A DNA stretch of 64,000 bases from Vibrio sp. SCSIO 43136 (GTDB lineage: Bacteria; Pseudomonadota; Gammaproteobacteria; Enterobacterales; Vibrionaceae), in NCBI RefSeq assembly GCF_023716565.1, contig NZ_CP071848.1, positions 2,604,001 to 2,668,000 on the forward strand, written 5' to 3'. Below, piece by piece: positions 42,380 to 46,869 of this stretch. How positions within the stretch are numbered: the first letter of the stretch is position 1; each line of letters opens with the position of its first letter. Made by a program: the position numbers and the translations under genes. The notes beneath the pieces were generated by a model. The model made no database searches and was not told where the DNA came from. It saw only the letters and a program-made list of their open reading frames with translations.

Positions 42380-44629
42380 TTAGTAACGGCCTGCGCGTAC
42401 GAAGCCTGAGAGCTGCTTACGATCAAGATATTCCAGCACACTTCGGTGAATATCTTTGCCATAAGCTTGTTTTAATGAAGATGTCGCTAGCTGTTGCAAC
42501 TCTTTAATTTCTACTTGGCGAAGGATGTATTTAACCCTTGCCACGTTCGAGGTATTCATACTCAGTGAGCGATAGCCTAACCCCACCGCAAGCAATGCAC
42601 CAATAGGGTCACCTGCTAATTCACCACAAATTGACACGGGCAGTTGGTAGCTCGAACAGATGCTCTGAATTTGCGCTAGTGCCTGTATCACTGATGGATG
42701 CACTGACTCGTACACATCTGACACTCGTGCATTGTTTCGGTCGACCGCAAGCAAGTATTGAGTAAGGTCATTGGTGCCCACCGAAACAAAATCAATTCGC
42801 TCAGCAATCAAAGGCAACAAAAACAAGATTGATGGGACCTCAAGCATGATGCCAATTTTCGGTCGCACCAACTCTGGGTAATCCTGAGACACTTCGCCAA
42901 ACGCCTGATCGATGAGAGTAATTGCCTCGTCGAGCTCTTGGCTTCCTGAAACCATTGGCAATAAGATGCTTAAGTTATTTAAACCCGCACTTGCACGAAG
43001 CATCGCCCTTAACTGGATCAGAAAAATATCGGGATGATCTAGGGTAAAACGAATGCCGCGCCATCCTAAGAATGGGTTATCTTCCTCTATCGGCAGGTAT
43101 GGCAGCGGTTTATCACCGCCCACATCCAGTGTGCGCATTACGACTTTTTGCTCAGGATAAGTCGATAGTACGGTCTTGTACTGCGCTGCTTGTTCATCTT
43201 CAGACGGAAAACGCTGCTTGAGCAAAAAGGAGATTTCGGTTCGGTAAAGGCCAACACCATCTACCCCTTGGTTAATTGCAATCTGGTTATCGGCACTTAA
43301 ACCGGCATTGAGCAGGACTTCGACTTCACAGCCGTCTTGGGTTGAAGCGCGTTGAGTCAGCTCTGACTCAACCAAGGCGGACAGTTCATGCTCTTCAACT
43401 TGCAGCTCTTGATACTCTTGCAGCAAAGGCGGCATAGGATCGACAAATACAGTACCGCTATAACCGTCAACGATCCCTTGTTTGCCAACCAAAGAATTCT
43501 GATTGATCGATGCGCCCATCACCGCAGGGATGCCTAGTGCTCTTGAAAGAATGGCTGCGTGAGAGTTGGCCGCCCCTTCCATAGAGACCACCGCCAATAA
43601 TTTATCTCTTGGCATACTGGCAAGCATAGAGGCCGTCAGTTCAGTCACCACCACGATCACCGGCTCTTTCCACTCTTGCTCATACCCTTCGCTAGTATGC
43701 AAAAAATGCAATAATCGCTGGCCGAGTTCTCTAAAATCTTGGGCCCGCTCACGCAAGTAAAGATCGGACATCTGTGCAAATCGACTCGAATAGCTATCGA
43801 TCACTTGGCGCAGTGCCCAGTCGGCTCGATCACGCTTATCGATCTGTAGCTTAAGATCTTTGCGTAACATAGGGTCGTTGAGCAAGTGGGTAAACAAGTC
43901 GAATATTGCCAAAGCGTCTTTATTGATTTCATTGTCGAATTTCTTACGCATCCGACGAAAATCCGTCAAGGCCGCTTCAATGGCGAGCGCCATCCACTCT
44001 TGCTCTTTATCAATATCTAAGGCACTAGCTGGATAGACTTCCGATAATTGGGGCTGATTGTCGTCCCACCAAAACTGACCAATCGCTACTCCAGGTGAAG
44101 CTGGGACACCTGAAATAGTTTGGCTTTTTGCATCATTGATCAACCAATGACCTTGTGCTTGAGCGTGGGCAATCAACACCGCAAGCTGGGCAGATAAGGT
44201 GACCAAAAAAGACTCTTCTGTCTCACTAAATTGGCGGGAAGTTTTTTGTTGAATAACTAGAACGCCTAATACCTGTTTGCGGTAAATAATCGGCGCACCT
44301 AGAAAGGAATGAAAAATATCTTCCCCAAGCTGAGGAAGATATTTGAATGCAGGGTGCTTAGACGCTTCAGCAAGGTTAAGTGGCTCAGCACTACGACGCA
44401 CCAAGCCCACCAAACCTTCAGGATAATCGATATGAATTGCATCGCCTTCAAACGTCAGGCCTTTGGTTGCCATCAGTTCCAGTCGTTGCAGCTCATCATT
44501 AGCAAAATAGACCGTACAACACTCAGTCTGCATCGCCAAGCAGGTTTCGTTGACCAGTACGTCCAGCGCTTGATGAATATTCTCGACTCGAGACACTTGT
44601 TCAACAATATCTCGCAACTGAGTGAGCAT
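42380..44629 (-). CDS. ptsP: PTS-Ntr enzyme I
   Basis: This is the first phosphotransferase of the nitrogen PTS, passing phosphate from PEP to NPr. The 749 residues comprise an N-terminal GAF domain (about 18-160), then PEP-utilising domains. The phosphohistidine lies in GAANSHAAILSRALGIP (about 360), and the PEP-binding segment contains GLYRTEISFL and GWRGIRF. It begins 5 bases after rppH; the rppH-ptsP pair is conserved. Confidence 0.97.
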   Translation of the reverse strand: MLTQLRDIVEQVSRVENIHQALDVLVNETCLAMQTECCTVYFANDELQRLELMATKGLTFEGDAIHIDYPEGLVGLVRRSAEPLNLAEASKHPAFKYLPQLGEDIFHSFLGAPIIYRKQVLGVLVIQQKTSRQFSETEESFLVTLSAQLAVLIAHAQAQGHWLINDAKSQTISGVPASPGVAIGQFWWDDNQPQLSEVYPASALDIDKEQEWMALAIEAALTDFRRMRKKFDNEINKDALAIFDLFTHLLNDPMLRKDLKLQIDKRDRADWALRQVIDSYSSRFAQMSDLYLRERAQDFRELGQRLLHFLHTSEGYEQEWKEPVIVVVTELTASMLASMPRDKLLAVVSMEGAANSHAAILSRALGIPAVMGASINQNSLVGKQGIVDGYSGTVFVDPMPPLLQEYQELQVEEHELSALVESELTQRASTQDGCEVEVLLNAGLSADNQIAINQGVDGVGLYRTEISFLLKQRFPSEDEQAAQYKTVLSTYPEQKVVMRTLDVGGDKPLPYLPIEEDNPFLGWRGIRFTLDHPDIFLIQLRAMLRASAGLNNLSILLPMVSGSQELDEAITLIDQAFGEVSQDYPELVRPKIGIMLEVPSILFLLPLIAERIDFVSVGTNDLTQYLLAVDRNNARVSDVYESVHPSVIQALAQIQSICSSYQLPVSICGELAGDPIGALLAVGLGYRSLSMNTSNVARVKYILRQVEIKELQQLATSSLKQAYGKDIHRSVLEYLDRKQLSGFVRAGRY

Positions 44630-44634
44630 CGCTC

Positions 44635-45153
44635 CTATCCTCTTCGGTTCTTCCGTTTACCCTTGGTTTTCTTCTCTCTAAACGGCATCGCCAAAGTCGC
44701 AAATTCCTTCATTGCTCGGCGGTATACATCGCGTTTAAATGAGACGACTTGACGGACGGGGTACCAATAACTAACCCATCGCCAACCATCAAATTCAGGT
44801 GTGACGCCTCGCTGCATATTGATGTGCGACTCATCGCAATCTAATCGCAGCAAAAACCACTTTTGTTTCTGCCCAATACAGACAGGTTTAGAATCCCAAC
44901 GCACTAAACGTTTTGGCAATTTATATCTAAGCCAATGGCGACTGGTCGCCAAAATAGTGACATCTTTTTTCGTTAAACCTACTTCTTCATACAACTCTCG
45001 GTACATGGCTTGCTCTGGAGTTTCGCCATCATCAATACCACCTTGTGGAAATTGCCAAGAGTGCTGTCCATATCGTTTCGCCCAAAACACCTGACCATGG
45101 TTGTTACATATTACGATTCCCACATTTAAGCGGTAACCATCGCCATCGATCAC
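44635..45153 (-). CDS. rppH: RNA pyrophosphohydrolase
   Basis: RppH (NudH/YgdP) removes pyrophosphate from mRNA 5' ends and triggers RNase E decay. The 172 residues begin [15 protein letters not shown] and carry the Nudix box [20 protein letters not shown] followed by VGL. The C-terminus is basic. Upstream is the 613-base non-coding block with DnaA boxes, and beyond it mutH, as in E. coli. Confidence 0.97.
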
Positions 45154-45169
45154 AGGCTAACCTCAATCA

Positions 45170-45700
45170 TAAATCTCTGTTAATGGTGATTTTTCCACAT
45201 ATCCCCAAGCGGGGCAAACTTCCATGTCGCATAACCTAATAATTTCTTTTTCACACCGCCACAACTGGATAACTTTCGACCAACTCCAGACTTATCAACA
45301 TTTAAATGAGACCTAAGCCACATTTATTCACCTTTTCTGTGAATAAGTGTGTGAAGAAATAGCATCTAACTCAGATCATAGAGAATAAACAGAACAATAA
45401 ACCATCTCATCATTTGTTGAATAAAGAAATAAACCATTAAAAATCAACAACTAAAACTCACTAGAATAATTTTTAAAGATCTATTTCTTCCATCTACCCA
45501 CTAGAAAATCAGATCGGTCAAAGATCCACCACAACTGATATTATCCACACAAGAGCGAATACTTTTCACCCTGTATCAAAAACTCAACCAATTTATTGCC
45601 CTACCAGGCCTGAATATTGATCCAGTAGTTTAGTATCTAGGTTACTTTCAAACCTAGCCTGTGGATAAGTAATAAAAAGGATCTTTATCCGCATTAGTGT
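45170..45700. other. DARS2-like DnaA-reactivating site
   Basis: This is a long AT-rich non-coding region between rppH and mutH with a cluster of DnaA boxes. Exact matches to TTWTNCACA occur at 45191-45199, 45247-45255, 45338-45346 (reverse), 45541-45549 and 45660-45668 (reverse); the last two are the strongest form, TTATCCACA. One-mismatch boxes lie at 45292-45300, 45324-45332 and 45685-45693. An IHF-like site (AATCAACAACTAA, one mismatch) lies at 45442-45454. In E. coli the mutH/ygdP(rppH) gap holds DARS2, which regenerates ATP-DnaA. Synteny and boxes argue for the same function, although activity is inferred. Confidence 0.8.
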
Positions 45701-45766
45701 TATTTCAAGGAACCTATGGGGAGTTGTGCTAAGATCTTGCGCTAGTGTTCAAACGACCGTCTCGAA

Positions 45767-46450
45767 ATGAAACCAACACCTACCTCAGAAGCAGAATTAC
45801 TCCAACGCGCTTGGGAAATATCCGGCTACAGCTTTGCGGAGCTCGCCGAAGAAGCTGGTATGACTGTGCCCGAAAATCTCAAACGTGAAAAAGGATGGGT
45901 TGGTCAGTTACTTGAATGGCATCTTGGAGCCAGTGCGGGCAGCAAACCTCAACCTGATTTTGTCGAGCTCGGTATTGAGTTAAAAAGCATTCCAATCAGT
46001 CATAAGGGAAAACCTCTTGAGACAACTTTTGTCTCAGTGGCTCCGTTGATTGGTGTGCATGGATTAACTTGGGAGCAAAGCCACGTCAGACATAAGCTTG
46101 CCAAAGTCTTGTGGATCCCTGTCGAGGGTGAAAGAGAGCTACCACTAGGTGAAAGAAAGGTCGGTTCACCTCTGATTTGGAGCCCAGATGAAGAAGAGCA
46201 GCTCCAGCTAAAGCAAGACTGGGAGGAGTTGATGGAGCTAATTGTGTTGGGGCAAGTTGAGCAAATTACGGCCAAGCACGGGCAGTGGTTGCAACTTCGT
46301 CCCAAGGCAGCAAACAGTAAAGCTCTGACCGAAGCTTATGGTGCTAATGGTAAACCGATCATGACGTTGCCCCGTGGGTTTTATTTACGCACCCAGTTTA
46401 CTGCTCGGATCCTTGCCAAGCATTTTGGTAGTGACTTAGTGGACGGATAG
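45767..46450 (+). CDS. mutH: DNA mismatch repair endonuclease MutH
   Basis: MutH nicks the unmethylated strand at hemimethylated GATC sites when activated by MutL. The 227 residues (E. coli 229) hold the catalytic D...E-x-K motif in [14 protein letters not shown], plus [17 protein letters not shown]. Its presence implies Dam methylation in the host. Its last 15 bases overlap the convergent gene at 46436-46741. Confidence 0.97.
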
Positions 46451-46741
46451 CTCGATATCGTGATATCCCACCGCTTGGTTGCTGCCGCACTCATCGTAAG
46501 CATTATGCAAACGAAGGTAAGCACTTTGTACTCCTAAACGATGAAGCTCGTCTTTTACCTGCTCTAGACTCTGAAAGTGAATGGGCTCATCTTCAATACG
46601 TATAGGCTCAAGATGATGCTTAAATTCCACTGCTAGTAAATAGCTGCCAATGTCAGCACAACTGATGACAAATATTTTTGGGTCTTGTTCATGCTCGAGA
46701 TGTTTGGCGTGCAGCCAGTGATCAAACTGTTCCTTTCTCAT
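46436..46741 (-). CDS. DUF6482-like protein of unknown function
   Basis: This 101-residue soluble protein has no known role. The start at 46741 is chosen because a perfect AAGGAGG lies 8 bases upstream; the frame extends 15 codons further without such a site. The pattern [15 protein letters not shown], then [15 protein letters not shown] and a C-terminal [13 protein letters not shown] resembles the DUF6482 family of gammaproteobacteria; this assignment is from memory of the family. It overlaps the mutH 3' end tail to tail. Confidence 0.75.
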
Positions 46742-46869
46742 CGATGGTGCCTCCTTGGCCAAGTTGATAAGTGCATTAATAAGCATAGACTATAGATCCA
46801 AAGATCTCTTCAAAGCTATTGACCTATCCCCACTCATAAGCGGTATAGTGAAAAGAAAAAGGAGATCCT

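Follow-up and report, generated by a model that had tools for sequence, protein, structure and literature searches.

A probable DARS2 element between rppH and mutH of Vibrio sp. SCSIO 43136, and related sites on both chromosomes

The gap between rppH and mutH in Vibrio sp. SCSIO 43136 most probably contains the DARS2 of the primary chromosome, at positions 45191–45668 of the 64-kb stretch of DNA that was analysed (the window). E. coli DARS2 is an established chromosomal site believed to recharge DnaA, the protein that starts replication. We put the probability that the Vibrio element is a DARS2 working as in E. coli at about 0.9; this reading is based on the observed place of the element, its DnaA boxes, their order, spacing and conservation, and the recharging activity would follow by analogy.

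The identification as such is not new, since DARS2 and DARS1 have already been reported in V. cholerae. The covered passages of PMC6090056, which cite Fujimitsu 2009, place V. cholerae DARS-like sequences at uvrB and mutH, and Figure 8 of PMC8682772 counts V. cholerae in its set of DARS2 sequences, described there as having the core, FBS2-3, and box V or low-affinity boxes; its likeness to the window is taken from the figure legend, which does not name the species of the window. The present analysis places the DARS2 core in vibrios and adds an rppH-side box that is specific to Vibrionaceae among the loci compared. In the literature passages covered, we found no test of DARS activity in a vibrio.

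The gap, its flanking genes and the DnaA-box cluster

The gap spans 45154–45766 (613 bp). Its flanking genes had been named as rppH and mutH in a preliminary description made from the sequence alone, and NCBIfam equivalog models confirmed both: rppH, encoding RNA pyrophosphohydrolase (44635–45153, minus strand), matched NF001934 with 337 bits versus a cut-off of 241, and mutH (45767–46450, plus strand) matched TIGR02248 with 339 bits versus 230. The models also identified ptsP beyond rppH, the gene order being as in E. coli, and the location of the gap is that of DARS2, between rppH (ygdP) and mutH. Unlike the window, the E. coli gap carries an annotated ygdT gene. Downstream of mutH, a small DUF6482 (PF20090) protein of unknown function is encoded on the opposite strand (46436–46786).

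The gap is AT-rich, as described before (64% versus 53% for the window). Its reported length of 613 bases was correct, but its description as the longest non-coding block is only roughly right, because its rank varies with the ORF cut-off: it is the first when ORFs of at least 60 aa are treated as coding, the second at 100 aa, and outside the top six at 150 aa. All five exact TTWTNCACA boxes mentioned previously were located in the gap (45191, 45247 and 45541 on the plus strand, 45338 and 45660 on the minus strand), and four one-mismatch boxes were found where at least three had been claimed (45292, 45324 and 45685 plus, 45350 minus). In 1000 dinucleotide shuffles of the gap, the mean numbers were 0.09 exact boxes and 1.79 boxes with at most one mismatch, and none of the shuffles reached either of the observed values of five and nine. 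The window as a whole contains 9 exact boxes versus 7.5 expected, i.e., without enrichment, and the cluster is therefore local. The exact box TTTTTCACA at 45247–45255 (plus) was rejected as a conserved box, since among the 57 aligned genomes it was found only in the genome under study.

The gap contains seven GATC sites; of 1268 sliding windows of equal length, 52 reached this number, which is therefore unremarkable, and GATC enrichment was rejected. Searches revealed no Rfam match in 44600–46000, no terminator-like site in 45100–45800, and no tRNA in the 64-kb window.

Architecture, conservation and proposed function of the element

To determine which parts of the gap are conserved, sequences from 57 genomes of the genus, including the one under study, were aligned, four genomes (G054, G058, G016 and G026) being left out. 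The predicted DARS2 core is 45324–45358. It consists of box I, TTATTCACC (45324–45332, plus), box II, TTATTCACA (45338–45346, minus), lying head to head with box I, and box III, TTCTTCACA (45350–45358, minus). Boxes I and III have at most one mismatch in all 57 genomes and are identical in E. coli; box II is exact in 53 genomes, within one mismatch in all 57, and reads CTATCCACA in E. coli. The whole core, TTATTCACC-TTTTC-TGTGAATAA-GTG-TGTGAAGAA, is nearly letter for letter the same as that of E. coli DARS2, TTATTCACC-TTTTC-TGTGGATAG-AGT-TGTGAAGAA (from position 1563 of locus L032). According to the covered part of PMC8682772, boxes I and II of a DARS core are opposed in orientation, and such an arrangement was found here (45324 plus, 45338 minus, followed by 45350 minus).

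Two conserved boxes precede the core. The nearer one, a one-mismatch box TTATCAACA (45292–45300, plus) located 32 bp before the core, is present with at most one mismatch in 56 of the 57 genomes and has an E. coli counterpart, TTATAAACA, at the same offset. The other lies beside rppH, 133 bp before the core, where the exact box TTTTCCACA (45191–45199, plus) is followed by a weaker one, ATATCCCCA (45199–45207, plus). It is exact in 56 of 57 genomes, with a mean major-base frequency of 0.99 across 45190–45207, and is additional relative to E. coli, whose sequence at this position is TGTTTCATA. A wider comparison comprised 21 loci, 12 from other genera of Vibrionaceae and 9 from other families; one of the 12, L155, is not a DARS2. 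Of the remaining 11 Vibrionaceae loci, 8 carry an exact box between −133 and −135, whereas none of the 9 DARS2-type loci from other families does; all nine of these have exact boxes at +208 to +211 and at +325 to +330. Among the loci compared, the extra rppH-side box was confined to Vibrionaceae and is a trait of this family.

Downstream of the core, the IHF-like site proposed at 45442–45454 was confirmed: the sequence AATCAACAACTAA (plus) differs by one mismatch from WATCAANNNNTTR, occupies the place of E. coli IBS1-2, and is the one predicted IHF site between the core and the Fis region. The best match was located at +118 or +119 from the core in 37 of 57 genomes (+118 in the window, +109 in E. 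coli), and 35 genomes have a site with 0–1 mismatch in the interval +95 to +140, versus about 8 for shuffled letters. The step from the core to the IHF site exceeds that of E. coli by 9 bp, or roughly one helical turn. In the covered part of PMC4245941, shifting the E. coli IHF site by 5 bp from the core is described as leaving partial activity, and by 10 bp moderate activity. In view of these data and the one-turn-longer step, the direction of bending may be the conserved feature.

Next comes the Fis-region block GGTCAAAGATCCACCAC (45515–45531, plus; mean major-base frequency 0.89), which aligns with GGCGAAAGATCAACCA of E. coli and is the putative counterpart of its FBS2-3 region; the written Fis consensus, however, is matched only with two mismatches here, a point against the DARS2 reading, and with one or two in the other genomes. 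Within this block, the GATC at 45523 is shared by 55 of 57 genomes and by E. coli, and is the only widely kept GATC of the gap; given its location, Dam methylation or SeqA might affect Fis binding. Beside the Fis region lies the exact box TTATCCACA (45541–45549, plus; exact in 53 of 57 genomes), named as the counterpart of E. coli box V by its position, which is +217 from the core versus +211 for the same sequence in E. coli, i.e., 6 bp farther. A conserved block of unassigned role (45611–45625; mean major-base frequency 0.82) separates it from the distal box, again TTATCCACA (45660–45668, minus), which is exact in all 57 genomes and in E. coli. The distance between box V and the distal box is 119 bp in both the window and E. 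coli.

Altogether, the element shares with E. coli DARS2 the gene pair, the three-box core, the −32 box, the IHF-like site, the Fis-region block, box V and the distal box. Gene context, the near-identical core, the order of the accessory sites and the near-equal spacing support the earlier proposal that the gap carries a Vibrio DARS2. The mean major-base frequency is 0.90 for the 125 columns of the element versus 0.56 for the remaining 488 columns of the gap, with the limits of the element having been drawn on the same alignment, and the conserved islands in the otherwise diverged gap coincide with the boxes, the IHF site and the Fis-region block. One could suggest instead that the boxes passively titrate DnaA, absorbing it without a change of its nucleotide. 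Nine boxes with at most one mismatch within 613 bp would suit such a cluster, and chromosomal titration has been argued for E. coli in the covered part of PMC12371093, but for titration there would be no need of fixed spacings (5 bp and 3 bp within boxes I–III) or of conservation of an IHF site and a Fis-region block, which makes this explanation very unlikely. Another cluster of DnaA boxes with an IHF site, E. coli datA, is similar by its description in PMC8682772 (as far as covered); it differs in promoting ATP hydrolysis on DnaA and in its location.

The mutH gene was found in all 61 genomes of the genus that were examined, and in 57 of them the element is present upstream of it in clear form; in one more, G054, it lies beside rppH. 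Conservation of the boxes across vibrios and in E. coli, which had been named as a check on the DARS2 proposal, was thereby observed. In G054, mutH is located elsewhere and the whole element, with boxes at −133, +14, +219 and +340, is retained beside rppH. Points against the DARS2 reading are the damaged box I of G058, the poor box III of G016, which keeps boxes I and II, and G026 (1.0 Mb), where no core was found at mutH. A two-box pattern with at most one mismatch occurs in 120 of 121 Vibrionaceae genomes, a count that takes in other convergent pairs as well.

Another possibility is that the boxes are operators in a DnaA-controlled promoter region of rppH or mutH. In its favour, the gap is common to these two divergent genes, and the Vibrionaceae box at 45191 is separated from the start codon of rppH by 37 bp; on the other hand, the core is 443 bp away from mutH and remains intact in G054, where mutH is gone, which makes this genome a natural experiment speaking against promoter function at mutH. 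A promoter scan found one promoter-like site versus 2.2 expected by chance, which is weak evidence either way. Taken together, these data leave the promoter explanation an even slimmer chance than titration.

In the preliminary description the boxes at 45660 and 45685 were suggested as the core, and the convergent pair at 45324–45346 as a second arrangement; the pair does exist, but as part of the core itself together with box III, whereas the one-mismatch box TTATCCGCA (45685–45693, plus) was found in none of the 56 aligned relatives and the core of E. coli DARS2 is matched in the alignment by 45324–45358, so that the 45660/45685 arrangement, despite a 45660 box conserved in all 57 genomes and in E. 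coli, can practically be dismissed.

As DARS2, the element would be expected to work as follows, by inference from the covered parts of the E. coli studies PMC8682772 and PMC4245941. Two ADP-DnaA molecules, one on box I (45324) and the other on box II (45338), would face each other head to head, aided by a third on box III; the paired molecules would lose ADP, and the departing apo-DnaA would take up ATP. IHF bound at 45442 would bend the DNA so that Fis in 45515–45531 reaches the core and switches it on, while ATP-DnaA accumulating from box V (45541) would displace Fis and switch the core off.

DARS1, crtS and their order on chromosome 1

A second three-box core was found on chromosome 1 of the same genome at 960140–960174, with one mismatch to the search pattern. 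The start of uvrB lies 388 bp after the start of this core; in E. coli, the DARS1 core is about 420 bp before uvrB. E. coli DARS1, located between bioD and uvrB and not at the DARS2 locus, has the same geometry of box I (plus), 5 bp, box II (minus), 3 bp, box III (minus), and the site at 960140 is its counterpart and putative DARS1 by the presence of a three-box core upstream of uvrB. The uvrB gene was present in 19 of 20 fetched loci with such a core, being absent from the stretch L107. The reversed-pattern control of the three-box scan gave 0 to 2 matches per genome.

A convergent pair of DnaA boxes, TTATCCACAATTTCTGTGGATA, was also noted at 1177693–1177714 of chromosome 1, in the spacer between ORFs that by eye resemble a formate transporter and an ABC permease; a third box at the spacing of a DARS core is lacking.

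The crtS site of Vibrionaceae resembles the element in being an initiator-remodelling site away from the origin, and has been likened to DARS (PMC3937223 and PMC6139311, in the passages covered), but it acts through RctB on chromosome 2 and lies elsewhere: a match to the crtS consensus was found at 602557–602581 of chromosome 1. The published consensus was matched in all 31 genomes (25 of the genus and 6 of other genera) used to establish the order of sites on chromosome 1, with origins placed by mnmG. For E. coli, the comparison of distances from the origin used what we take to be the coordinates of oriC and DARS1. DARS2 is located at 0.36 of the half-chromosome (sd 0.04), compared with 0.64 (sd 0.07) for the uvrB-side core, the two being on one arm in 16 of 31 genomes. 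Relative to ori1, crtS is farther out than DARS2 in all genomes but G007 (30 of 31; by a median of 104 kb), the two lying on opposite arms in 8, and is closer than the uvrB-side core in all 31. The order outward from ori1 is DARS2, crtS, DARS1. Much of it may be due to synteny combined with origin-centred inversion; as an order of replication, it provides a frame for testing the timing of both chromosomes.

A DARS-like site near the terminus of chromosome 2

Chromosome 2 of the studied genome carries a three-box DARS-like core at 915517–915551, flanked by genes for a YbbP-type permease and an FAD oxidoreductase and located 28 kb from a dif2-like site. Of the 61 genomes of the genus, 60 matched the pattern TTATCCACANNNNNNGTGGATAANNNTNNGGATAA written for it when up to two mismatches were allowed, and none matched the reversed pattern; since this and the three-box pattern were written from the same sequence set, the counts indicate conservation and not independent discovery. 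Of the 60 matches, 54 have no mismatch and 6 have one, and the genome lacking a match is 65% complete. Alignment of 14 loci showed the 35 bp of the site as a conserved island in a diverged spacer. The geometry of box I (plus), 5 bp, box II (minus), 3 bp, box III (minus) is retained, but box II ends in C or T in most genomes and box III often deviates by two mismatches, which speaks against a DARS. DnaA is stated to prefer paired boxes 2–3 bp apart in the covered part of PMC11317965. On these grounds the site may be said to resemble DARS, without being classed as one.

In the stretch around the site, as retrieved from 17 genomes of the genus, the YbbP-type permease gene is present in 17 and the FAD-dependent oxidoreductase gene in 15. 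In two genomes of another genus, g11, a related site precedes the same FAD-dependent oxidoreductase gene in the absence of the YbbP-type permease gene, and the match in G026 adjoins neither gene. Distances to the terminus were obtained with what we take to be the dif motif. The site and a dif-like match are on the same second contig in 28 of 37 genomes (24 of the genus and 4 of g11); the nine left out are G055, with no dif match on that contig, and eight genomes of genera g8 and g3 without the site. The distance between the site and the dif2-like match is at most 60 kb in 25 of the 28, with a median of 28 kb. It is larger in G036 (111 kb), G047 (384 kb) and G034, where it is 889 kb linearly or about 217 kb round the 1,106,395-bp contig. 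On chromosome 1 of G003, the distance between mnmG and the dif1 match is 0.27 of the chromosome, which makes either the assembly or the match doubtful.

One could hypothesise that vibrios carry on chromosome 2, beside the terminus, a third DnaA-recharging site, i.e., a working DARS, although we regard this as unlikely. Replication would reach such a site only shortly before chromosome 2 is finished, so that completion of this chromosome would act back on the following initiation of chromosome 1. If so, the feedback from chromosome 2 would mirror crtS, coupling the chromosomes in both directions, and the two-chromosome cycle would have three points at which DnaA recharging rises, DARS2 being copied before and DARS1 after crtS. 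Recharging of DnaA by a chromosome 2 site was not found in the literature titles, abstract openings or passages covered. Against the hypothesis, some genomes of other families also have three core-like sites (G197, G255 and G292). The site may also have been kept near dif2 through conserved gene order alone, and it may have a promoter or terminator role. An intrinsic terminator is not favoured: five T in the eight bases after the hairpin occur only in the locus of the studied genome, and on one strand, while the other 13 aligned loci have at most four.

A single fixed chromosome 2 core for the whole family was rejected, as the smaller replicon of g8 and g3 has other box pairs in other gene contexts. 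Thirteen genomes of other genera were chosen for this comparison because the two-box scan had listed extra sites in them; among them, a match at one mismatch was present in 8 of 8 genomes of g8 searched, themselves picked for extra sites. In g8, two three-box sites are located in a different place on the smaller replicon, e.g., at 940418 and 758708 of chromosome 2 in G067.
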